From Linum tenue (taxonomy: Eukaryota; Streptophyta; Magnoliopsida; Malpighiales; Linaceae), in NCBI GenBank assembly GCA_946122785.1, contig CAMGYJ010000002.1, positions 11,482,839-11,546,838 of the forward strand: a stretch of DNA of 64,000 nucleotides, given 5' to 3'. A program made the translations under genes and the position numbers. The notes under the pieces were generated by a model, which saw only the letters and a program-made list of their open reading frames with translations, was not told where the DNA came from and searched no databases. Of this stretch, positions 1 to 28,191 are shown piece by piece. Position 1 is the first letter of the stretch. Every line of letters starts with the position of its first letter.

Positions 1-1190
1 TCAGCGTATAGGTATACGATTGTTGTATAAGGTGTTGATGTTAGAGGAAATGGGTACTGACTGCTTAGGGTATTAGGTTGTTGATGGTATAGAGTATATG
101 GTATATGGGTAGGTTATAAGGTGTTGATGGTTTAGAGCATATGGTATCGATTGGTTAAAGGGTGAGGGTAGGTGTTGTCTTATTTTTTCTCGATTATATA
201 TTTTCTTTATATTTGCTTATAAATGCTGATCATGCCTTATTACTAAGACATAATTCGTTATATCTGCTTATAAATGCTGTATATCTGCTTATAAATGCTG
301 ATAATTTATTGTTTGATTTGAACCTGCGTGTTTTTGCTCCGAATGATTTTGTAGTGGCGTGGTAAAGACAATCCGTCCAATTTAACTCTTCATTAATTCC
401 CCCTTTTCTTTTCTGTTTTGGTAGAATAATTACCCCTTTTCCACTCTCTCAGTCCCCGCCGAAGTTGAAACAATCCCCTGTGATATATTTATCGATCATT
501 TTAACCCTTCACTCAATAAGAAAGCGAAATTATGCAAGATGGTCATCAATGTGATGTAGCTTAATTGGTTAATTGTCTCTTATTTGCTTAGTCAATAAAG
601 TAGAGGTTTGTGGTTCGATACTTAGTGAGGTATCAATTTTTAATTTATGTTTTGAAAAGCAAGTTATAATTTTAATTTATCAGCGTCTAGGTATACGATA
701 TTGTATAAGGTGTTGATGGTTTAGAGTACATGGTATTGGGTTAGTGTATTGATCATCTCCATCCCTAAAATAAGATATTGTATAAGGTTTTGATGGTTTA
801 GAGTATATGGTATTCGGTTAGTGTATTGATCATCTTCATCCCTAAAATTGAACAACAATTTCTAAACGAGGTCCCTACCGCCACATCATCAATTTTAGCA
901 ATTCATCACTTAACAATTTCTATTCATCTACATCCCTACATTATGCTAGTAATTGCCAAGGTGGGTTCCATTTTATATTTCAAAGGAAACACTTATTATA
1001 AATTGAAAGTTGGGGATGGAGATAGAAGAAGGTGTTGTTGGTATACAGTATAAGGTCTTGAAGGTGATGGACGTATAAGGGAGGAGCAAGGTGTTGATGG
1101 TTTAAAGTATATATGTTATTGATTGGTTACGGTATAAGCCTATAAGGTGTTCTTATTGTTGTAGAGTATATGATATTGATTGGTTCGTGT
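1..1190. repeat. Dispersed/tandem AT-rich repeat around telomere-like motifs
   Basis: A unit of roughly 40 bp, approximately 'aaggtgttgatggtttag' followed by 'agtatatggtat', recurs at about 30-150, 690-745, 780-815, 1040-1110 and 1140-1180, and again at 3424 and 3530. Within it, a 20-bp unit 'atatctgcttataaatgctg' is repeated at about 205-300. No coding potential is convincing. It may be decayed subtelomere-like or satellite DNA, because it adjoins a TTTAGGG tract. Confidence 0.55.
541..640 (+). repeat. tRNA-derived (SINE-like) sequence
   Basis: The stretch has an A-box-like 'tagcttaattggtta' and a B-box-like 'ggttcgatac', spaced as in a tRNA. It lacks a clean cloverleaf and ends in unrelated AT-rich sequence. 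Similar decayed tRNA-like pieces lie at 27275-27350 and 28370-28440 on the opposite strand. It is probably a tRNA-derived dispersed repeat and not a functional tRNA gene. Confidence 0.35.
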
Positions 1191-1202
1191 ATTAGGGTTT
1201 GG

Positions 1203-1254
1203 TTTAGGGTTTAGGGTTTAGGGTTTAGGGTTTAGGGTTTAGGGTTTAGGGTTT
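1203..1254 (+). repeat. Interstitial telomeric repeat (TTTAGGG)n
   Basis: About seven uninterrupted units of the plant telomere heptamer TTTAGGG, followed by 'tttcaagttag'. It lies inside duplicated copy A at the same relative position as the tract at 3568. It is too short and too internal to be a chromosome end. Confidence 0.95.
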
Positions 1255-2158
1255 CAAGTTAGAATAACATAAACCAGATCAATAGAGTAATGTTGGTAAA
1301 CGAAAAAGTTAGTTAATCTACAAATTCAGACTATTTAAAAAAGTACATCCCCATTTCCCACCGTCAATTCCTAAACTTTTCCCTTGATCCGATGGTGAAA
1401 TACCTTCGATCCTCGTCGCGTGCGTGTCACCCAATCAGATATTGCCGAATTCGGAAAGTCGCTTTTGCCCATAACCAATGCTGGCGTTACCAAGGCCGAG
1501 GCAGTGGTAGGGACTGTAATTTTCAGTAAATGTGAAGGGAGGGAAAAGTAAAAGTAATTACGAGTCAATCTTTAAATTCGTTCCTCCTCCTCTCAATCCC
1601 TGAAAAGAACCCTTTCTTCCATCTTCTCAATATGAAACCCCGAAAATCAACTCCATCCGCCTCTCGTCCTCCTATCCCATGCTTTATTTTCGGGTGCAGT
1701 GGTAATGATGAGACTGCGTATTATTTTAGATCTCATTTCCTTTCATTATGTCATTGTTAGATCGTGACTGTTAAACTAAATCCTTCGTTGTATTGTTTCT
1801 CCTTTTCTCTCCATGCAGGGTCTTTGTTAGAGGCAGGGAGGGGAGCAATGACAATAAGTCGCCGTCTGAATATAGCCAGAAGAATCATCACATGTTGTTG
1901 CGATTCCATAATAGGTGTTGTGGAACCCTACTTCATGTGGTGATTCTTCTGCGCCATATTGACGCGTACTTGTTGATCATGCTCCCAAAATGTATACAAG
2001 ATAGGAAAGTTGCCATATGTATAATAGGATAAAATAGTTAGGGAAAGTACAGCTTTTTGTTTTTGTTCGACTCTATGTAACATTTGTTTATGTTTGTATA
2101 CTGTTTTGTGATTTTTTCTTCTGCTTCTCTCTTCGCTTCCATGGCGGCTTCCAAAAGT

Positions 2159-2364
2159 GTTTGAGATCTTCTAAATATGCGAGGGATCCTCCACTCCCAA
2201 TAAAAATACTTGTACTTTGTACTATTAGCGTTTGAGATCTTCTAAATCTGCAGGGGATCCTACACTCCCAATAAAAATACTGTACCTTGTACTTTAGCGT
2301 TTGAGATCTTCTAAAATCTGGAGGGAATCCTACAGTCCCAATAAAAATACTGTACTTTATTTGT
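2159..2364. repeat. Tandem repeat, three units of about 66-71 bp
   Basis: Units begin at 2159, 2230 and 2299, each opening with 'gtttgagatcttctaaa' and ending near 'aataaaaatactgtac'. The related segment copy B carries a single diverged unit at about 4497. The triplication therefore arose in copy A after the duplication, or was lost from copy B. Confidence 0.85.
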
Positions 2365-2962
2365 TGACTACTGACTCCATTTTTAGAAGTCTTTACGATT
2401 GGGCCAACCGGATTTTTTGCCGGATTTCGAACTCTGCTCCTCTGTAGCCACATGCTCTACACATTTAATGAGTGCTCAAAATTAGTGCAAAAAATACGAT
2501 GTAATAATTGAATAAAAAAAACTAGTTCTCAAGAGTATTCAACTGAAATGTTGCACATGATTTATTTAGGGTCGTTTGGATGTGGAAATTTTAAAACGTT
2601 GAAATTTGTCTGAATTTCAATGTTTTACAAAACCAAGGAATTGACTTGTGGAAATTGAAAAAAAAACTCACGTTTGGATAAGGTTTAGTTTGTGAGAATT
2701 GATGGTATGGAATTTGGAAAAAGAAGTAAGAAAACGTGGTAATGTCAAATTACTAGGGGGAGGTGTAGTATTCTCAATTACCATCAAGTGCTTACAAATT
2801 GCCATCAAGTGACCATTAATGAGTGCATAAATAAAACGACACCGCAAGAGCCAACAGTCTTCTTATATACCAAACGACTCGGCATAGGAGGACTTCCAGT
2901 TTCAGTTCAAGTTTCCAACACCGAGCAAATATATGGTCCCAAATGCCACTTTAGCAACTTTA

Positions 2963-3288
2963 ATCGTTTGGAAGTTGTGATTCTTCAAATTGATGTATTA
3001 GGCCAATTAGTGTATTATCATTTGATGTATTGATTCAATGCATGTATTAGGAAAATACTTTGTTTGGAAGGGCAACGATGAAACAAAAAGTAGGGTAGAC
3101 AATCCTTCATTAACAATCTCACCTTTTAGTAGAGATTTATAATCATTCATTTTGAGTGATTGTTGGTGGGCCCAACAAAAAGGTAATGCATGTATTCTAA
3201 CTCAAAGTGAACCAAAAAAACGACTTCATCTTATCATTACATGTATTTGCTAAATACCTCACTTCAAATCTCAACCTCCAAACGACCC
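2963..3288. mobile_element. Tourist-like MITE (decayed)
   Basis: The left end 'tcgtttggaagttgtgatt' is an inverted match to the right end 'caacctccaaacgaccc'. Terminal GGGTCGTTTGG-type repeats are common in PIF/Harbinger-derived Tourist elements, and a clearer relative lies at 28972-29398. No clean target-site duplication is visible here. A second left-end-like motif at 2569 ('gggtcgtttgg') could instead make a larger composite element. Confidence 0.45.
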
Positions 3289-3414
3289 AAGTACTATATA
3301 TCAATTGTGACCATGGGTCCTACTTAATTTTCGTTGCAATTCAATATTAATTGGTGAGTGTATTATATTAATTTGAGTGCATCTCTCAACTTGTTTTTTG
3401 TCGTTGTTTTATTC

Positions 3415-4925
3415 GAATTATGTAAGGTGTTGATGGTTTAGTGTATATGTTATTGATTGGTTCGTGTATTAGGGTTTGGCATTGCCAATTGCTAAAGGTT
3501 GGTTTAGCAATGGGATGGAGATGCTCTAAGGTGTTATTGTTGTAGAGTATATGGTATTGATTGGTTCGGGTTTAGGGTTTAGGGTTTAGGGTTTAGGGTT
3601 TAGGGTTTAGGGTTTAGGGTTTAGGGTTACAATTACATGTACCAAATCTGTAGATTAATTTTGGTAAACGAAAAGGTTATTTAATCTACAAAGCCAGTCT
3701 AAAAGCACATCCCCATCTCCCGCCGTCAATTCCTAAATTTTCGTTTAATCCGATGGTGAAAGAGCTTCAATCCTAACCGCGGCGTGTCACCCAATCAGAT
3801 ATGGCCGTTTTCGGAAAGTCGCATTTGCCCCTAACCAGTGCTGACGTTACCAAGGCCGAGGCAGCGGTAGGGAGTGTGATTTTCAGTAAATGGGAAGGGC
3901 TGGAAAGGCAAAGTAAATTTATGAGCTCATTTATAAATTCTTTAATCAGAGAGGGAGAGACCATGCTCCGAAACCCAAGAGGCACTCATCTCCTGCTGTT
4001 GTCCGTTCCTCCTCTCAAATCCCTGAAAAGACCCCTTTCTCCCATCTTCTCAACCCCGAAAATCATCCCCATCCGCCTCTTCGTCCTCCTGTCCATGCTT
4101 TATTTTCGGGTGCAGTGGTAAAGATGAGACTGCGTATTATTTTAGATCTCAGTTCCTTTAGTTATGTAATTGTTATGACTGTTAAACTAAATCCTTCGTT
4201 GTATTGTTTCTCCTTTTCTCTCCATGCAGGGTCTTTGTTAGAGGCAGGGAGGGGAGCAATGACAATAAGTCGCCGTTTCAATATCGCCTGAAGAATCATC
4301 ATATGTTGTTGCGATTCCATAATAGGTGTTGTGGAACCCTACGTCATATGATGGTTCTTTTGTGCGACATTGACGCGTACTTGTTGATCATGCTCCCAAA
4401 ATATATACAAGAGGGAAAAGTTGCCATATGTATAGTATAAAAGTGGGAGGAGGGAAAGTAAATTGTTTTGTTTTTCAAGATTTGTACTTTTATTAGTGTT
4501 TGAGATCTTAATAATATATTGGTGAGGGATATTTCACTAAATAAACATACTGTATTTTATTTCTTGATTACTGCCTCCATTTTCAGAAGTCCTCTGTCGG
4601 CGCCCAAATTACATGCCCAAATTACATGTCATAATTTTAGTGGCCAAAAGTAAGTAAATTTATAAACAAGTAAAAAATCCGATCTAATAATTCAATAAAA
4701 AAAAACGAGTGAGAAAAATAATTCAACTGAAATGTTGCACATGATATATTTTTAGGGAAAAACCTCCAGGTCGAATTCAATCAAATCCATCCGAACTAAA
4801 TAAAACGACACCGTAGCAGGCAGTAGTCTTCTTATAAACCAAAGAGACACACCGTTAAAATGACACACAAGTAAAACGACACCGCAGATGGCAACAGTCT
4901 TCTTATAAATCAAACGACGCCGCTT
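3415..4925. repeat. Segmental duplication, copy B
   Basis: Diverged direct repeat of copy A. It has the same order of telomeric tract, GC-moderate block, splice-like 'ccatgcag/ggtctt' junction and 'aaaacgacaccg' motifs; the last occur as two tandem units at about 4797 and 4870. In both copies the stretch after the splice-like junction stays open for about 78 codons and reads FVRGREGSNDNKSP near its start. Neither copy has an ATG at the front, so I do not call a gene. Confidence 0.75.
3568..3628 (+). repeat. Interstitial telomeric repeat (TTTAGGG)n
   Basis: About eight and a half perfect TTTAGGG units, one to two more than in copy A. The left flank is 'tgattggttcg' and the right flank 'ttacaattacat'. 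Confidence 0.95.
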
Positions 4926-4993
4926 CAAGCTGATACTGGCAGTCTTCACATAGTCCATTAGTCCTAATCCGAATAGGATAAGGACGTCCATCT

Positions 4994-7762
4994 TCACTCC
5001 AAGTTTTCAACAATCCTTAGTTTGCTACTTCTTGTAACAGGCCTCTTCTGCAAAATCGATAACGACGATTTTAGACGTACACAAATATTGGATGTAACTG
5101 CATTGTGTATACACGAACAATTATATCTTATTCTTACCCTAGGTTGCTCATAATCGTCGTCATCGTCATTTTCATCATCGTCATTTTCATCATCGTCATT
5201 TCCTGACCCAGTACATGTTCTTGCATTATGATTGGTAGAACCGCACTTACGGCAATGCTTTTGCCTTCTCTTCTGTACTGTTTCCGACTGATCTTGAGTG
5301 GTTGGAGGATCAACATCGTTGTCATCGCCACCGCCACCTTCTTCCGAAACACCATCATTCGGGGCATCACCGTTTGAGGTTGGCTTCACATAGCCAACAG
5401 GATGTGGGCATCGGGTCCTATAGTGGCCAAATTCCTGGCAATTGCTACACTGTCGTGGTTCTCCTTTCTTCCGTTTAGATTTTTTAGCCCCCGAACCTTT
5501 AGCTTTGACTTGTAATGGATCCAACAAAATTTCATTCGCCTTCGGCCTATTAATGCCGGGTATGTCCACGTTGCCAGTGTCCACCATGTCCAACTGTTCA
5601 CATAATGATTGAATTCCCTCACGAGCAATCTTGAAGCACTCACTAGATTTTGCCCCTTTTAACATTAGTTGTAAGCTGTGTTGTTGAATAGTACCATACC
5701 TGATTGACACAAGATTTTATACAAAGTGAGTAAAATTAATGTTCACCTAGCTTCGAACCAATACTAAAAAAATATAAATTAAAAGTGATAGTCATGGCAA
5801 ACCTCAATGCGAAAAGTTGCGATTCATCTAGTCTGCCCGGTTCGTCCAAGCTCTCTAGTGTCTTCGGCTTCTTTGACCATCTTCGACGTACTAGGCCTTC
5901 AGGAAGTTCCAGTATGCTCTCTTCTTTCAGTACAAAAATCATATGACGACATGGTATTCCCATATAATTGTAGTGATTACAACTACATTCCATTGCAAAG
6001 GGTTCAACTGCGTACGTGACTTGAAATACCTTAGCCATGCCAGACACCTTGACCTTGTACACATGCTCAATTTCCGATCGCTCTGTCTCCAACCTTATGC
6101 AACATGCCGACTTTTCAACCTCGTCTCTGAATAAGAAGAATGCGTTCTTTGTGAAAAACGCCGCTCCACTCTTCTGAAGTGAGACTAAGACATTGCTTGT
6201 GATGGTTCGTTCTCGATGAATGGATTCAAAATCAGCATGACGCTCATTCTCCCTCATATCCCTAGTCCAACGATCAAAGTGAATAAAGAACTCAAGGAGA
6301 TTTTTATCCTTCTCGATATAGTTGGCAAGTTGAGAGTTCAGTCCTTCACATCTTGATGTTGTACTCAAGCCTGCGAAGAACTTCGAACGCAAATATGCAT
6401 ACCCCCATTCATGTCTTTGGTCAAATAAATTGGAGACCCAATTGTTGTGCTGAAGGGAGCATTCTTCAACCACTGTTTTCCACTTTTCTTCGAATTCTGA
6501 AGGTTCCCAGTCAGCTGACACAAAATGCTTCCATCGGGGCAAAAAAGTTGGATGATTCTTCACATTTCTGGTTATAGTCTTGTCTATATGCCAGGAACAT
6601 AGACGATGTGTTGCATCGGGAAATACTTTCTGAATAGCATTACGCATTGCTCTATCCCCATCTGTAATAACAGTCTTGGGATCTACACCGCCTAGCCTTC
6701 TCTTCAAAGCTCCCAACACCCAAATATAATTGTCCTCTCTCTCGTTAGCCAAGAAAGCACATGCAAATACGCAAGTTTGCGAATGGTGGTTGACACCTTA
6801 AAAAGTTCAAACAAAGTTAGATTATGCAAACTTCTAGGGTTATTTTAGCATGCTCGGGATAATTCTATGTGTGAAGGAAAAGTACCTGAAAAAATCACGA
6901 GAGGCATCTGGTAAATGTTCCTTTTGTAAGTAGCATCGAATGACAGTAATTCACCAAAGCATGCATAATCAGCAACAGAAATACTATCGGCCCAGAAAAT
7001 GTTAATAAGCCGGTCGTCGTCATCCTTCTTTAGTTCAATAACGAAATGCTCGTCCGCGGTGCATTTAGCTTGCAGGTAGGCTAGGGCTGTTGCGGCATCA
7101 CCTTCACTGATTTGTTCTTTCCTCTCTTTGTCCACATAATTATATGCATCCTTCCTCGTGTACCCCAAATTGTCGTAGCCTCCTGCTTCTGATACGGCCA
7201 GATTCACAATTTGAGAAGTTTTCATACCTGCAGCTCTTCTAAAATTTATCGCTGCTTTGACTGCATCACTCATACGACGTTTCCCTTTCATGTAGTGTCT
7301 ATATTCTCTCGGGATCGTTTCATGTGTGTGTACATCATCAAACTGGTGCACGTACCACTTCCCATCGACATTGTGTTGTTTAACACGCATCTTGGCTCTG
7401 CAGTTAAATCTGGTCTCCCCTCTTGCTTCTCTCTTTCGTTCTGTGCTCTTCATGCGCCTCTTTCCCTCGCCAGAGCATACATAGTCACGCCATATCATAA
7501 CTTTGTTCTTATCACGACCAATGTCTGATTTTCTGATGTCGAAGCCTTTGACTAACCCGTAGTCCATGTAGAAATCATAGGCTTCTTCTGTATCATCGAA
7601 CTTCATTTTTTTAATATCTTCAGGCTGTAGCAATAAGAGATCGGCGACATTATCTTCCTGGGTGGTGTGACTTGTTCCGGCACCAGCGTTTTCTTGGACT
7701 CCCTCCGACGTCAATACTAGGACTCCCTCCGACGTCAATGGTGAGTCTGCCTCCGACGTCAT
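4994..7762 (-). CDS. FAR1-related / Mutator-like (MULE) transposase
   Basis: Four exons, all GT-AG: 7762-6886, 6796-5803, 5699-5138 and 5047-4994. The phases close exactly to 828 codons plus a stop. The order is: Ser/Thr-rich N-terminus with repeated LTSEGV; FAR1-type WRKY-GCM1 zinc-finger region (EEAYDFYMDYG ... FNCRAKMRV ... HTHE); MULE transposase core; SWIM zinc finger (CSCNHYNYMGIPCRH); two CX2CX4HX4C zinc knuckles (CSNCQEFGHYRTRC and CRKCGSTNHNARTC); an acidic Asp/Asn tail; a basic last exon. The DDE residues are visible: D in SFDATYKR, D in VITDGDRAM, E in TSRCEGLNSQL. Function is transposition or, if domesticated, FAR1/FHY3-type transcriptional control; the sequence alone does not decide. 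The start is the first in-frame ATG. It is divergent from the Ulp1-like gene. No terminal inverted repeats were found. Confidence 0.88.
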
Positions 7763-8326
7763 TGTCACGGCTGGAAAGTTTGGGGAACCAAGGACGTAGA
7801 TTACACAACCCTACTGGGAATGATGGCCGAATTAATGATTCAACGGGCCACTTAATAATTATCCCCATTAATAACACGATTTGTGATATCTTTTATTTTT
7901 GGTAGGAACGAGTTGCACTTTCTGTTCTTTATCTTAGTGATTTCTTTACCATTTTCACAAATAACGAAAATATTTAAAATGAAAAACCTTTCGTAGTAAA
8001 GCCAAACGCCAGCTGACTCTAGGTGTCTACTACGTGTATGGGGAAGGATCAAATATTAATATGAGCGAATATTTACTAATACCACTCAATTCTCTATTCA
8101 ATCGAAGAAAGTATCTTTTTACTTTTAGGTTTAATAACTACCCATGTTTATCCCAAGTTCATGTACCTTAGACTAAACCCTAACTATTTTTCCGCGGGAA
8201 AAATATGGCGCCACAATTTATCCTAACCTTGTATATATAATTAACCTTCATCGGTAGAGCAATGGTTCCATATCCTTCTTTGCCGCGATTTTGAGTACAG
8301 AGTAAAGCTTAGATTACAGGCACAAC
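7763..8326. promoter_or_regulatory. Shared intergenic region of a divergent gene pair
   Basis: These 564 bp separate the two start codons. They contain a TATA-like TATATATAA at 8232-8240, about 87 bp before the plus-strand ATG, and an E2F/telo-box cluster at 8175-8201. They therefore probably hold promoters for both the transposase (minus) and the Ulp1-like gene (plus). Confidence 0.5.
8175..8214. promoter_or_regulatory. Telo-box plus palindromic E2F-like site
   Basis: AAACCCTAA (telo-box) at 8175-8183 is followed by the palindrome ttttccgcgggaaaa at 8188-8202. This contains GCGGGAAA, the reverse complement of the E2F consensus TTTCCCGC. A 'ggcgcc' follows at 8207-8212. Telo-box and E2F pairs are known from promoters active in dividing plant cells; function here is inferred. 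Confidence 0.4.
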
Positions 8327-10209
8327 ATGGAAAATAGGAGACTTACTCGCTCTTCGTCCAAGCTCGTGGTATGTATAATAGCTCTTTTTACCATTGAAAT
8401 TCATTCTACTTAATTTATTAATCGCAGGTTCACTGTCATTGTAGGAGACAGCCGAATTTGTGACTCCAACAAAGAAACCAAGGATACCCAAAGGCAAAGG
8501 TGTAAGCACTCCACCCACTCCTGCTTCAGTCATCGTTTTTATTTCGGACGATGAATCTGACTCTGAGGTCACACCAAAGAAGCCAAATGGAAAAAGTATT
8601 TGTCTACCTTCTGTTGACAAGGTAATAAAGGTGTCATGTTTGCCATTGAAGTGTTCTTTGCCGTTATTCCGTCATGACGAATGCATTTCAACTCGTGTTT
8701 TTTGTGGCACCTATTCCAGGTTGTTTTGAAGTTTAAGCTACCTACCGCTATGGAATACGATGATGAGCAAATCCAGCTTGCTCACTACATATTTTTAGCC
8801 CATCTGCCACTTGACGAAGTATTGGTCAAAACCTCCAACAACTCTTGTACGAGGAAGTCACTGTGGTCCTTAAGCCCTCGCTCATTCGTAGATGCTGATG
8901 TAATCAACGGAACTCCAAATTTTTTTTTTACATGTCCACTATCAATGCTTTTCTACATAGAATTATTTTATAACAACTCGATAGTATCATGAAGTGTTTT
9001 TTGTCCATGTTATATTAGGTTATAACAGCGATGGCCTGCCACTTGACTCTAGAAGAGTTGTGGACAAATTCCAAGGACGGAAAAGGAGTGTGCTATCTGC
9101 CTGCTGAACTACAGGTTGTGTTCCGATTATACTTAATGACAATTTCCTCTCCCCCAAAAAATTACAACACATGTTTTTTTAACGTGAATCATATTGTGTT
9201 GACAAAATTTCAATTGTGCAACTACCACATGGGCAGGAACTAGTGATTTCATGTGGAATAACACCCAAGATGGCATTAGACCTATACCAATCAAAATTCC
9301 TTAGTCGAACCAATATGGTGAACAAGGTAAACTGTTCGTCTTAATAAGTATTACATGGTTTGCAGTTTATTTTTTTAATACGTGTTGACAATTTCCGCAT
9401 ATGTAGGTGTGTGTTCCGATGAGAGATAATGGCCATTGGTACTTGGCTGTCATTAAGTTGGACAAGGAAGAAGTCCATATCTTGGATCCACAACCAAATG
9501 AAGACCGCAATTCCTTTCGACTACAATCTGTTCAAACAATGGTAAATATGTGACATTGTGCCGTTATAACGCAACAAAATGTAAATAACTCTTTCTAAGT
9601 ACAAACGTTTCTTAATTTGTACAGATGTGCTTTATGCAAGCCTTGTGGAAGATTCTCTATCGTGAACAAGGTCCGGGATTGTCGCCACCAAGGATTGCGG
9701 AGTTTTCGTACCCAACTCCTTCAATTGTGCAACAACAACTTCATCGGTAAGTATGCCCATTTTTTTGTGATATTAAACGACGACTTATCAACTTGGTTCT
9801 TATCACGCAATGCTTTTATTTTATGTAGGTCTGACAGTGGAGTCTGGGTATGCATGTGGATGTATGGCGCAAGCTGGGACTCCTCTTATATTTGGGTAAC
9901 GACAATTCTAATTCCCATATTAGAAAACCACAATTGATTGTTATTTTTGAATCATGCGGTAAGCACCATGTTTGTTGATGTTGATAGCCATGCACTCAAG
10001 TGAGGAGGATGCAGATCGCTTTGTACCTTGTTCGAGAGCCCATGAACTACATAAGGCATATGGTGCTCACGGAAGCAAGAAGAGTTGCACCTCAAGTTGA
10101 AGCTGCAGTGGAAGAGTACAAGACAACCCATGAAAAGAGGAAAAAGGAAAGAGAAGAGCACAAGGAAACCCGGTCAACGAGCCCAAAACAACCTGATTTT
10201 GAGTTCTAA
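8327..10209 (+). CDS. Ulp1-like cysteine protease domain protein, Cys-to-Ser at active site
   Basis: Nine exons with GT-AG borders: 8327-8368, 8445-8621, 8720-8899, 9019-9114, 9237-9326, 9407-9541, 9625-9746, 9829-9895 and about 9988-10209, giving about 376 aa. The N-terminus is basic and Pro/Lys-rich with an acidic ISDDESDSE patch. The Ulp1/SENP-type (C48) core follows: SPRSFVDADVIT (compare W-V-D-x-D-V-I-N), DNGHWYLAVI with the catalytic His, HILDPQ with the catalytic Asp, then VQQQLHRSDSGVWVCMWM, where the usual DCG reads DSG. The C-terminus is Lys/Glu-rich and ends PDFEF. Family members remove SUMO or NEDD8-like modifiers, but the Ser (AGT) predicts loss of thiol protease activity. Ulp1-like genes are often carried by plant Mutator-like elements, which fits the divergent transposase. 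The last acceptor is the least certain border. Confidence 0.8.
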
Positions 10210-10278
10210 GTTTTTGGTTTTGATGAAGGACAACAGTTATGTTTTTTTTTCTCAGGATGATGGACAACCGTTTTTAAT

Positions 10279-10520
10279 TTGTTTCGGTGAATGCTTATTA
10301 TTTTTGGCTTTTATATTTGGTTTTTGGTTTGGTGAATGCTTTTTATATTTGGTTTTTGGTTTGGTTTGGTGAATGGTTTTAATATTTGGTTTTTGGTTTG
10401 GTTTGGTGAATGGTTTTAATATTTGGTTTTTGGTTTGGTTTTTGGTTTGGTGAATGCTTTGTATATTTGGTTTTTGGTATTGTGAATGCTTTCTATATTT
10501 GGTTTGGTTTGGTTTGTTTT
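10279..10520. repeat. Minisatellite, T/G-rich 32-46-bp units
   Basis: About six units built on 'ggtttggtgaatgcttt' plus 'tatatttggtttttggtt', lying just 3' of the Ulp1-like gene. The antisense reads as a Pro/Asn/Lys-rich repeat peptide, but that follows from the repeat itself. Confidence 0.85.
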
Positions 10521-11645
10521 TTCGTGGAAATGGCAAAGGGACTTCACCAAAATTCCACCTTCCAACTTGTGAGTGAGGTTGCGTCTGTTCAAGGCTTCAA
10601 GCCATTGTATCTTGTAGAGAGGTTTAATTGGGATCATGTATAGTTAAACTGATTGGCTCCCAATCGTATAATTAAATTTGCATTCATGTATAGGTAACCC
10701 AAAAGGTAAAACTGATTGGAAGTAGTGATTTACATTGATGAGGAGAGTGGCTTAAGTACCAACTCTTGAACAGATTGAAGCTACAAAGTAGGAGCCACTA
10801 ACCCACTAACTAAAACTAATGACGTTACTAACTAATAATAATAAAATTAATTATTTACAGAAATTGAATTTATGCACAGCCCTTATCATTCCATTCCTTG
10901 AATTTCCACCAACGATGTTTTCACTCCCCTTTTAGTCAGAGAATTCATTGTAGTAATAAATACAATAAAAAGGCATACATAATTAATGGATTCTTTATTG
11001 TGTATAATTAAAAGGATATTTTACTATAAACGAAGCATGATAGATCGACAGGGGGATAAAAGAAGCATGAGTCTTGATGAAAAAGGGGGAAAAAATCACC
11101 ATAGATAAAAAATCATTATAATCAACCTAATTGGAACTGCTTAGAACAAAAGCGGATTAAAATCTCCCCCAATGAAATTCATTTGCAATTTCATAGGTAG
11201 TCCCTACTTCCACTTCTATAATTTTGACAAAACATTGCAATTTCATCAATAGTCCCCACTCGTGGGCCAATTTCAATTGCAACCAAATTTGCACCCTTGC
11301 AATAGCTTCTCACATCATAGCAAGTGTAGGATGCAATTGCACCTCCTTGCTTAGGAATGACCATTACTGCATCTCGTCACCTGTCTTAGGGAAATTAGCC
11401 ATGGCAAATTCACAAAATACTGCATGCATAGAAAAATATTTGTCTGGATAATTAAAAAAATGGGAGACTTTCCTAGTCAGATGATGTACTGGCTCCCCTC
11501 AGTACCTGACAGTTTTGAGTGCTGGAGAAAAAGACTGGAAAAAAAAAAAAAACAACGAAGCCTTAACAAAACACATCCAATGATGGCCCCTTCACTGCTC
11601 CATCCCGCCCTGCACTGCTCCACCCCGCCCTGCATCAATCGACTC
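10521..11645. other. AT-rich spacer, no gene seen
   Basis: No protein family, RNA gene or complete transposon is recognisable. There is an A-run at 11540-11551 and a short duplicated 'gcactgctccacccc' motif at 11594-11632. Confidence 0.6.
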
Positions 11646-12497
11646 TCATGTAAGCCGAGGACGTTTGCTTGAGGATGCCTCAGGGGTCTCTTCATGCTCC
11701 GTATGCCGAAGTTCATGAAAAGTATTGGTCACTTCGACGATACGGTAGACTGGCAAATAGGCGGAATGGTCCTCCCTAGCATAAACCCCCATATCCATCC
11801 CAACCCTTCCAAGAAAGGTGGTCAAGAAGGTGGCATATGGAAAGGCAGTGTACCAGTTTTCCCCTCTAGGAGCCGCCTCAACCATGTTAACGCACATGAG
11901 AGATGCGAGGTTAAGAGGAACACCTCTTTGAGCTTGCACAAGGATAAACAGGTCAAGTGTACGAATTATTGAATGACCTCTGTACCTTGGCATGAAGCAG
12001 TTGACGATCATCCAATGGAGGAATCGAAGAGGATCTGGGAGGTAAGAAGCCTGGATCTTCCCATTCGTCAGTTTCCCCAGTTCAACTTCAAAATCAAAAT
12101 CGTACAGCCGCCGAAGATCGCTTCTGCTATCAATGTGGTGTCCTGCGGCGGGGAGATCGAGGATCTCAGCAAACTGATGAGGCTGGAAGCAGACTCTATG
12201 ACCCAGGAAGACCGACACGAGATGAGAATCGGAGGGACCAGACAGCTCTAAATTGTGGTAGAACTTCCTCACCACATGCGGGCAGTAACTGGTGCTTCCT
12301 CGACTCCGGAGATCGAAGAACTTTTCCCAGCCAAGATTTTTAATTAACTTCTTAACTTCTTGAGGGAAAGGACTCATGTTGATGAACTCGTACTCGGCCA
12401 CAATAGTCGTCTTGCTCGTGAATGAAAGATAGTCCGCGAGACTTGTGGTGGTTCGGCAGTCGTCGTTTGATAGAGTTAGAATGCCCATGTTTGCCAT
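11646..12497 (-). CDS. Putative plant transposon protein (PF20167-like)
   Basis: A single 283-codon frame starting at an ATG (MANMGILTLSN). The central region has the pattern of the 'putative plant transposon protein' family: VRKFYHNL, a VFLGHRVCF beta-strand-like patch, EILDLP, then LRFLHWMIVNCFMPR, LDLFILVQAQRGVPLN and an ATFLTTFLGRVG segment. The C-terminus SSSKRPRLT looks like a basic nuclear targeting tail. Such frames are usually parts of large retrotransposons; no gag or pol adjoins this one. Function in the family is unknown. A decayed relative lies at 15230-16134. The assignment rests on remembered family patterns. Confidence 0.6.
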   Translation of the reverse strand: MANMGILTLSNDDCRTTTSLADYLSFTSKTTIVAEYEFINMSPFPQEVKKLIKNLGWEKFFDLRSRGSTSYCPHVVRKFYHNLELSGPSDSHLVSVFLGHRVCFQPHQFAEILDLPAAGHHIDSRSDLRRLYDFDFEVELGKLTNGKIQASYLPDPLRFLHWMIVNCFMPRYRGHSIIRTLDLFILVQAQRGVPLNLASLMCVNMVEAAPRGENWYTAFPYATFLTTFLGRVGMDMGVYAREDHSAYLPVYRIVEVTNTFHELRHTEHEETPEASSSKRPRLT

Positions 12498-13586
12498 GGA
12501 GTCGGAGGAAGAAGGAACAAGGGAAGGTGAAGAAACAAGGGAAGGTGAAGATATGGAGGAAAAAAAAATTGTAGGGAAAGAGAGATTGTAGGTGTAAGAA
12601 AAAGTGGGGGTTGAGTGTGGAGACGTGTGATGGAGACGGTTGAGTCTGGAATGTCAAGAGTTAGAAGATATGGGAAGATATGTAGCAATGATGATGTTAA
12701 CTCGTGTAGGTTAAACTAGGGTAACTAAATCTAGTTAAACTAGGGTTGGCGCTGATACCGCAGGAGAAAACTAATGGGCTCGCACGTTCCAGGCCCAATT
12801 TTGAATATTTCATGGGTCATGTACAAGCCCACGTTTGAATGTTATTTAAAAGCCTCCAAAAATCAATGATCAGACCCAGTCCAACTAGAATTAGTCCTAA
12901 ACGCAGCGTTAATACATAAACACAAATTAAGGAGACCTCTCCATCTGATTCGAATCAAATTAGGTCTTCTTCATCTCCTTCCTCAATCCTCTGGGCGAGA
13001 CGAACACTGCATATCAGGAAACCTTAATTTCACCGAGAGATATAATCACAATAACGCTAAGACAAGATGACAAAGCACTAGTGACATGAACCCTAGGGTT
13101 AGCAAACCTCTTTCAAGGGTTCTTTTCCAAATGAAAAGTTCGATGAACACAATAATAGACATGGTCGCCGTAATCGTGTTAGAAAGAGATAGGCGAGGGG
13201 AAATACAATGGCGAAGAAGAAACAAGACAAATTATTTTTGGGAAATTCAATCTACTTCGAATGTGGATGGGGGGCTTCTCTTGGAACTGTGAAGGGGCGT
13301 CCCTCCAAGACGAGAGAGGGATCGTGTAATTGGTTAGGGAGACTGGAAATTGGTTTGGGCGGCAGTGGGTCTACCCAATTGGGTTTGGGTCTTAATCCAT
13401 TTAATTTAAACGGGGCAGTTAGTTGGACTAAGATGAAAACTAACTTAACGCGGAGGAGGCTTTTTGTAATTTGTTTAGTTATTTAGTGGCGCAGCTAGGT
13501 TTAACAAACGTGAGCCGTGGAGATTGAAAACGAACGGTGAAGATCGGCCAAGGTACCCGTACCCGGGTTTTGCCCTGGGCACCGTA
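12498..13586. other. No gene recognised
   Basis: It includes a purine-rich tract (12500-12600) just upstream of the PF20167-like frame, where a 5' leader or promoter would lie. The rest has short open frames without family resemblance. The piece at 13540-13586 ('ccgggttttgccctgggcacc') resembles 28088-28110. Confidence 0.5.
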
Positions 13587-13624
13587 GAAGTCACCATATA
13601 TATATATATATATATGGCGACTTC
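13587..13624. repeat. Near-perfect 38-bp palindrome centred on (TA)n
   Basis: 'gaagtc' and 'gacttc' flank a (TA)n tract, with one mismatch pair next to them (accat/atggc). The left flank resembles the flank of the (TA)n tract at 28113-28133. It is probably a fold-back remnant of a small transposon or a microsatellite inside one. Confidence 0.6.
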
Positions 13625-14089
13625 TATCGTACACCACCTAATCGCCCCCGTACGCGCGATCTGGATGGTCAGCAAAATTCCGGATCCGTTTTCTGTGTAA
13701 TGGATTATTAATTACCATGTAAATTACAATACACATCTCTTAACTCACAAAGTTTACATTGCAGTCCAGTTCTGTCAATCGGTTCAACCGCTCGGTTTAC
13801 ACCTTGCTGACCCTACCCAAATGAGGCAACCCTTTTCTCCTTCGCTCAGATCACCAACCATTTCTTTGCCTCTGTCTAGCTCATGCTCTTTCTCTCTTGT
13901 TTCTATTTTCCATCTCTCTCAACCTCTCACCCTCTCCCGTTGGTGCCTTCTCCATGCCGACAATCCATTGCCCCCATTCACTACTACCAATCGATTTGAC
14001 TTCGATAAATGTACAAGTGTATGGTTATTCAAGTTTATTGTCCTTAGATTCGTGATGCAACCCGAAATCTCATACAACTGACATAGAAT

Positions 14090-27482: not shown

Positions 27483-27741
27483 TGTGTGGTGATGGTTTGA
27501 AGAATTGGTGTTTGTCGAGGGAGGAGAGGAAAGGAGAGGGCGGCAGCTCCCTCTCTATCTTGGGTGTGTTTGGTTTGAAGGAATGAATACTTGTTAAATT
27601 TTATGGGTGGCCGGCTACTGAACTTTCATGTCAATAGGCAATAATAACCTTCCACCTATCAATTCCAATTATATGATTGCCCAATAGTTTTAATATACAA
27701 GTAGGTTATCTTTTATATATATATATATATATATGAAATTC

Positions 27742-28084
27742 GGGGTACCGCATACCTTGAGTATGAAAACGCTATCTAGACCTCGAATTAGCATGATTTT
27801 TGGGCATGATACTATACCCTAATCCTTAATGAGTGAACCCTAGGTCCTAATTATCTAAATCATAAACTATAAATCCTAAGATGGTGTATTGATTTTTTTG
27901 CCTATATTTGGACGAATCATAACCGTCGATTATTGTTTCTAATTAAATTTATCTTGGGGTATAAGATTTAGAGAATTAAGACCTAGATTTTGATCTTTAA
28001 GGGCTAGATTATAGTATCATGTCCAAAAGATTAGTCAATTCAAGTTCAAGATAGCGTTTTCTTATTCAAGGTATGCGGTACCCC
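27742..28084. mobile_element. MITE with 36-bp terminal inverted repeats between (TA)n tracts
   Basis: The left arm ggggtaccgcatacc...gctatct (27742-27777) is mirrored by agatagcg...ggtatgcggtacccc (28049-28084) with few mismatches. (TA)n tracts flank it at about 27714-27734 and 28113-28133. The superfamily is uncertain; insertion into or generation of TA repeats would fit a Tc1/mariner-type element. Confidence 0.75.
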
Positions 28085-28191
28085 TGATTTTACCCTGGGT
28101 ACCATAGAACTCCCCCTATATATATATATATAGAGGATATTTCCCATGTGAGGTTACAGGAGAGAGATGGTGCGGGTTTCCTTCCAATCGG

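Follow-up and report, generated by a model that had tools for sequence, protein, structure and literature searches.

Between positions 4994 and 10209 of a 64,000-nucleotide stretch of the Linum tenue genome (assembly GCA_946122785.1, contig CAMGYJ010000002.1, positions 11,482,839 to 11,546,838; this whole stretch is referred to below as the window), a gene for a Mutator-type transposase and a gene for an Ulp1-like protein diverge from a common spacer. This arrangement raises the question of whether the pair belongs to a transposon equipped with an accessory gene of the SUMO pathway or has been domesticated by its host, two possibilities which the initial annotation of the locus had left side by side. 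The two genes are almost certainly, as far as their sequence can tell, parts of one young three-gene DNA transposon of about 15 kb: a Mutator-like element (MULE) of the type with terminal inverted repeats (TIRs), from the FAR1/Jittery branch, in Linum. The transposon with a SUMO-pathway-like accessory gene therefore stands and the domesticated pair does not, since the genes are present in many copies which share common ends and target-site duplications (TSDs). As a whole, the locus is very probably best explained by a recently multiplied three-gene MULE which inserts mainly into (TA)n runs, generates TSDs of 9–10 bp elsewhere and encodes, in its Ulp1-like gene, a predicted SUMO binder. The 5.2-kb interval taken as the unit in the initial annotation is too small: the element starts to the left of the window, ends at position 13595 and includes a third gene which, like the terminal repeats and the targeting of TA microsatellites, had gone unremarked. 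The genes and their principal parts are the following.

4994–5699, minus strand: transposase exon 3, with two zinc knuckles, an acidic tail and the stop codon
5803–6796, minus strand: transposase exon 2, with most of the MULE domain and SWIM
6886–7762, minus strand: transposase exon 1, with the ATG, the FAR1 DNA-binding domain and the start of the MULE domain
7763–8326, no strand: divergent spacer of 564 bp between the two start codons
8327–10209, plus strand: Ulp1-like gene, nine exons (8327–8368, 8445–8621, 8720–8899, 9019–9114, 9237–9326, 9407–9541, 9625–9746, 9829–9895, 9988–10209), 376 aa
8529–8567, plus strand: coding stretch for VIVFISDDESDSE, presumably resembling a SUMO-interacting motif (SIM)
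9836–9838, plus strand: AGT codon for Ser284 at the position of the catalytic Cys
11646–12497, minus strand: third gene, single exon, 283 aa, with PF20167 (Transposase_32, "putative plant transposon protein")

The transposase gene has three exons (7762–6886, 6796–5803 and 5699–4994) which are joined by GT-AG introns into a single open frame of 858 aa, and its homologue P0008 is continuous over both exon joins. The protein matches the FAR1 (E = 1.1e-18), MULE (3.2e-28) and SWIM (6.6e-5) domains, while a CCHC match (0.0044) lies under Pfam's cut-off. Two CX2CX4HX4C motifs and the residues in FDATYK, TDGD and RCEG, picked out by eye, are what we take to be zinc knuckles and the DDE residues. The start and stop codons initially annotated for this gene proved right, as did the 564-bp spacer and the nine exons, 376 residues and plus strand of the Ulp1-like gene; the earlier transposase length of 828 aa was a miscount. 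To go by related families, a FAR1-MULE transposase would bind and cut the terminal repeats and so move the element by cut-and-paste.

Both genes recur collinearly, at 97–100% identity, in the 692-Mb genome. The transposase region is found at 34 places at 99–100% and at six at 97–98% (best 40 of 500 candidates), and the Ulp1 region at 39 full-length places at 99–100% and at one where it is split in two (best 40 of 409 candidates); the window is included in both sets and both counts are lower bounds. Twenty-seven of the 40 scored transposase places directly adjoin a scored Ulp1 place that has the same orientation. Among the other 13, the Ulp1 exon is present at the expected distance in eight and five are on contigs outside the matches listed. 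That there are many near-identical copies indicates that the element has multiplied recently. The transposase frame is open in eight of nine distinct copies read and the Ulp1-like frame in seven of eight, the remaining one carrying W297*; both fractions include the window and are biased upward, the copies read being the best matches to it.

The extent of the element was obtained from alignment with three distant copies, A, B and C, all of which align with the window to about 13.6 kb. Copies A and B extend further to the left than the window start. Copy A measures 14,746 bp from GGGCAGTTCTACGGTGCCC to the reversed GGTGACTTCTACGGTGCCC and has (AT)n directly at both sides. The last bases of the right end are missing from copy C, in which some 6 kb of inserted DNA interrupts the transposase frame, and copy B (C2:63.1 Mb) is rearranged: the part from its left end to window-equivalent position 11770 is inverted with respect to the right-end piece, and the join is an AT run in the third gene. 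In the window, the following parts of the element were delimited.

1–13595, no strand: part of the ~15-kb MULE copy within the window, by alignment to copies A and B; it continues to about -88, beyond which the DNA is unrelated
25–3583, no strand: unit of about 33 bp in ten dispersed copies (about 25–1202 and 3418–3583) in the noncoding left third
1153–4434, no strand: internal direct duplication (1153–2023 and 3534–4434) with a TTTAGGG array in each arm
10270–10516, no strand: T/G-rich tandem repeat downstream of the Ulp1-like gene
12810–13197, no strand: right arm of an inner inverted repeat; the 401 columns aligned with the left arm of copies A and C are 94% identical
13577–13595, minus strand: right terminus, 5′-GGTGACTTCTACGGTGCCC
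13596–13615, no strand: (AT)10 microsatellite adjoining the right terminus

The ends of the element read 5′-GGGCAG or GGTGAC followed by TTCTACGGTGCCCAGGGCAAAA, a pattern with 298 exact matches genome-wide and none for the reversed control. The first 100 listed of these ends were used for statistics on pairing, flanks and exon content. Sixty-eight of them form 34 facing pairs less than 30 kb apart, and each of the 34 joins unlike ends. The spans of these pairs are 14.0–17.3 kb in 24 cases, 7.5–9.3 kb in five, which look like internal deletions, and near 27 kb in two. The Ulp1 catalytic exon lies inside 28 of the 34 end-defined elements and inside 21 of the 24 which span 14.0–17.3 kb, so that the ends do not separate the two genes. 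Of the findings which the initial annotation had named as refuting, neither separating ends nor a single copy was obtained. Around the pair itself (4994–10209) inverted repeats have only short arms (18–25 nt, 72–84%), because the true ends are outside this interval.

In most cases these ends abut a microsatellite. TATATATAT flanks 83 of the 100 listed ends and, with a slightly looser end pattern in which two fewer A's are required, 244 ends genome-wide directly follow it. We conclude from the assembled copies that (TA)n microsatellites are the main insertion target. The 17 listed ends at other sites include both ends of six elements, each of which is bordered by an exact flush direct repeat, 9 bp long in one element and 10 bp long in the other five. 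A pair among the six has identical flanks in inverted orientation, which leaves five independent sites, and all these non-TA sites are still AT-rich. As the repeats are flush, they fix the ends to the base and provide the duplication length of a MULE. The initial annotation had proposed to look for collinear repeats, as a guide to ends and copy number, and for duplications of 9–10 bp around them, and both were found. Two of the copies with transposases at 97–98% have their flanks among the matches listed (C3:10.6 Mb and C3:22.6 Mb); both occupy non-TA sites, which hints, from two cases, that older copies may reside outside microsatellites.

The element thus combines the features of a FAR1/Jittery MULE: a transposase with a MULE domain, a FAR1-type N-terminus and SWIM; TIRs, the outermost left and right stretches being identical in 38 of 46 columns and the inner arms in 94% of 401; and, at five independent sites, TSDs in the range of 8–11 bp (9–10 bp in all six non-TA pairs). 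Its insertion mostly into (TA)n, with 83 of 100 listed ends next to TATATATAT, is that of microsatellite-targeting MULEs of the MuTAnT and SaTar kind. At the level of sequence, these comparisons establish a single unit, with its ends, copy number, target sites and three open genes, and the recent multiplication of a TIR-type MULE sitting mainly in TA runs.

The Ulp1-like protein matches PF02902 above the cut-off (2e-8), and a Citrus relative (26% identity over 213 residues) aligns over several of its exon joins. With catalytic positions assigned on the assumption that they correspond to those of yeast Ulp1, H205, D222 and Q278 are kept and Ser284 replaces the Cys which is present in the Citrus relatives P0084 and P0085. 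Of the Cys with His and Asp that characterize an active C48 SUMO protease, the protein therefore has His and Asp, with Ser in place of Cys, in keeping with its initial description as a dead-looking Ulp1. The substitution is not confined to the window. The Ser version of the exon occurs exactly at 177 genome places and the Cys version, searched for as an exact match which a more diverged Cys context would escape, at none. A pattern for the active-site exon allowing up to three mismatches is found at 255 places, and among the 34 exact places listed of these, 33 encode Ser, one Gly (GGT) and none Cys. Three of the six 97–98% transposase copies also have Ser next to them, the other three being outside the matches listed. 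None of the 1250 candidates for the Ulp1-like query in the protein database reached E ≤ 0.001; a search of solved structures gave seven matches up to E 10, none named as a C48 protease, and in the 376-aa protein no DUF1985 was detected, only PF02902 and one chance-level match. C48 stretches in general are abundant in the genome: of 990 candidates, 150 were scored and gave 151 matches. Many of these lie on open frames of 160–185 codons, in series of identical scores, which suggests that several other transposon families with Ulp1 genes may be present.

With its nucleophile lost and the rest of the site kept, and with a SIM-like stretch, the Ulp1-like protein would bind SUMO or SUMO-modified proteins and not cut them. 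We propose this role only tentatively. The N-terminal part contains VIVFISDDESDSE, which we take to fit a SIM; a strict pattern, picked after the sequence had been seen, occurred in 9 of 5000 shuffles, and a third pattern, present in 2577 of 5000, had no match in the real protein. Binding of this kind would probably shield the element from silencing or steer the transposase. In a fuller and rather unlikely form of the proposal, the protein would be a SUMO-binding pseudoprotease serving as an anti-silencing or targeting factor, that is, a SUMO trap which keeps SUMO-modified silencing proteins either on the repeat arrays of the element or away from them, the PF20167 protein possibly giving DNA specificity. 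A function like that of VANC would then have been reached independently in TIR-type TA-targeting MULEs. By analogy, the noncoding repeats (the ~33-bp units and the T/G-rich array at 10270–10516) would be the first candidates for the target of an accessory protein. Accessory proteins of Arabidopsis VANDALs lift silencing via noncoding tandem repeats (PMC5735166, PMC10398659), and the Ulp1-bearing KIU kind lifts silencing too, according to a review (PMC13317346).

It is possible, too, that the Ulp1-like gene is captured cargo which is passively carried and decaying, with the loss of Cys as a first sign. Transduplicated ULP domains are frequent in transposons (PMC2528002), PF02902 stretches are common in this genome, and three full-length elements are without the exact Ulp1 exon. 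Set against this are the nine-exon frame, open in seven of eight copies read, the active-site H, D and Q kept relative to the distant Citrus relative, and the exact Ser exon at its 177 places and beside three of the 97–98% copies; the force of these counterarguments is limited, as near-identical copies test little beyond their founder. That the protein is a working protease, with Ser as the nucleophile, which removes SUMO or a SUMO-like tag would agree with the nucleophile alone being changed among the four active-site residues compared, yet replacement of Cys by Ser in C48 enzymes abolishes or strongly reduces cleavage, and we regard this as improbable. What tells most about the locus is that Ser has replaced Cys in a family which is spreading. 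Uptake of Ulp1 by plant transposons has occurred repeatedly, and a review calls the role of these domains unknown (PMC13317346); a young family of near-identical copies in which the cutting residue is replaced would allow a clean test of SUMO binding versus cleavage.

The third gene encodes a protein which matches PF20167 (E = 2.9e-15) and no other domain, and which would be accessory. It is identical in the window, A and C and is cut by the rearrangement junction in B. Linum trigynum proteins are 92, 90 and 81% identical to it. Since that species has six database relatives, including a cluster with 28 members, the gene is multi-copy there. A fold predicted from a 7-row alignment (mean predicted local distance difference test score, 36) was too poor to use. 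The N-terminus of the Citrus protein gave chance-level matches to other families and not to DUF1985 or PF20167, so that an origin of the third gene as one separated half of a KIU protein found no support.

Two accounts of the locus as a whole fare far worse than those of the Ulp1-like gene alone. A divergent pair domesticated and kept by the host would agree with the two open frames of the window, but it is extremely improbable in the face of the many near-identical copies with shared ends and target duplications, which already refute it for the pair as a whole. Segmental duplication or an assembly artefact has some observations in its favour: one of the six TSD sites recurs in inverted form, so that some copies did arise by duplication of a larger stretch, and copy B is internally rearranged. 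As an explanation of the repeated 15-kb unit without a transposon it is scarcely credible, given the precise ends, the five independent sites with flush TSDs and the (AT)n immediately next to 83 of the 100 listed ends.

Several observations nevertheless weigh against a recently multiplied three-gene MULE with a predicted SUMO binder. Thirty-two of the 100 listed ends are unpaired, including the right end of the window copy, and 17 have no adjoining TATATATAT. The window copy has no recognisable left end, and the stretch of C2 from 10.54 to 11.50 Mb has no exact left end among the matches listed; because the left end was not found, this copy may itself be immobile. Three end-defined elements of 14–17 kb are without the exact Ulp1 exon, and a looser SIM pattern is common by chance (663 of 5000 shuffles). 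In L. trigynum, a close relative is known for the third gene alone: the best transposase match is only 45% identical and no Ulp1-like relative was found at E ≤ 0.001 in the protein database, from which gene models may be absent, so that joint travel of the three genes there is not shown.

Comparison with known systems indicates which features are new. Pairing of a FAR1-type transposase with Ulp1, put forward initially as a possible distinct lineage, is not new in itself: Jittery-like MULEs of melon carry ULP (van Leeuwen 2007, cited in PMC2528002), and a C48 domain is present in ten listed Citrus FAR1-transposase gene models, of which eight were re-scanned. Both have, like the Linum element, a FAR1/Jittery transposase beside an Ulp1 domain. 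In the Citrus models the transposase and C48 are joined in the same orientation; eight of ten checked are without the active-site exon, and P0084 and P0085, perhaps one locus, keep the Cys. Among the eleven best matches to the transposase, nine are from Linum and the others from Lupinus and Citrus. In a tree of 35 transposases (the window and 34 of 120 listed database matches), the window falls among Linum, the three Citrus sequences linked to Ulp1 fall beside Vitis, and the Ulp1 link requires two changes; a single shared origin of the link in Linum and Citrus is therefore unsupported. Ulp1 domains are also known in MULEs of Arabidopsis, melon, rice and grapevine (PMC2528002).

Among the closest known systems is MuTAnT, which is Mutator-like and has a Jittery-like transposase (833 aa versus 858 aa here), (TA)n insertion, 9-bp TSDs at non-TA sites and short foldback non-autonomous partners (PMC4486113). 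AutoMuTAnT of Medicago truncatula is a single putative autonomous element of 4.9 kb with one gene for this 833-aa transposase (PMC4486113), whereas the Linum element is about 15 kb long, has three genes, is present in far more coding copies and shows a 10-bp TSD in five of six cases. SaTar and the AgS-/ArS-MULEs of guayule and rice are likewise microsatellite-targeted, with 10-bp TSDs otherwise and end-to-end stacking across one microsatellite; guayule AgS-MULE1 (5.3 kb) and four autonomous MULEs of rice are called defective, and the excerpted text does not contain the word Ulp1 (PMC5907723). TA-microsatellite-targeting MULEs or their miniature inverted-repeat transposable elements are recorded in Medicago, guayule, rice and pineapple (PMC4486113, PMC5907723, PMC8449440). 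No autonomous element was found for those of pineapple (PMC8449440), and with four rice elements called defective (PMC5907723), the Linum family offers an apparently intact, high-copy autonomous candidate for this type of MULE.

The Kaonashi (KI/KIU) and VANDAL elements of Arabidopsis share with the Linum element three coding genes, a transposase and an Ulp1-like domain which points the opposite way (PMC2528002, PMC13317346, PMC5735166, PMC10398659), and VANDALs also have noncoding tandem repeats (PMC5735166, PMC10398659). They are non-TIR elements; the KIU proteins are VANC proteins which include an Ulp1 domain, and DUF1985 is a feature of VANC (PMC2528002, PMC13317346, PMC5735166, PMC10398659). 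In contrast, the Linum element has TIRs, a FAR1-type transposase, a separate PF20167 gene and Ser for Cys. Its assignment to the Kaonashi/KIU VANDALs was rejected, as TIRs are present and no Ulp1 lies within a VANC-type (DUF1985) protein. Unlike the fast-changing arrays of VANDALs, the ~33-bp unit is present in ten copies in the window and in A, B and C alike, while the plant telomere-type TTTAGGG arrays (1192–1254 and 3568–3628; 2–8 perfect units) vary in unit number among A, B and C. In the open-licence literature searched, we found no TA-targeting MULE reported to carry an Ulp1-like gene; among the papers listed, the only one to mention microsatellites, Mutator-like elements and Ulp1 together deals with maize TED. 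Precedents exist separately for FAR1/Ulp1 pairing and for TA targeting, but that literature yielded no report of an intact high-copy element which combines the two, or of a Cys-less form which has spread.

Other structures were noticed near the element and its relatives. Past the (AT)10 on the right, at 13596–13660, a second element-like end, GGCGACTTCTATCGTAC, lies back to back with the first across the one shared microsatellite; no opposite end belonging to it was found within the window. A comparable neighbour is stacked against the left side of copy C. To the left of the window copy, the DNA at C2:11481250–11482838 has no relation to the element beyond about -88, and its first 59 bases, by eye, resemble a FAR1/MULE transposase and may represent another MULE. 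A foldback element of 382 bp lies between (AT) runs at 27734–28115, and its right end matches the left end of the large element in 37 of 46 columns. The 40 best of its 2168 candidate places are 94–100% identical, and nearly all match the reversed query at about 70%. Its appearance is that of a non-autonomous partner like those of MuTAnT. A looser end pattern which also fits this foldback occurs directly after TATATATAT at 373 places genome-wide, with none in the control, the two kinds of element being pooled in this count.

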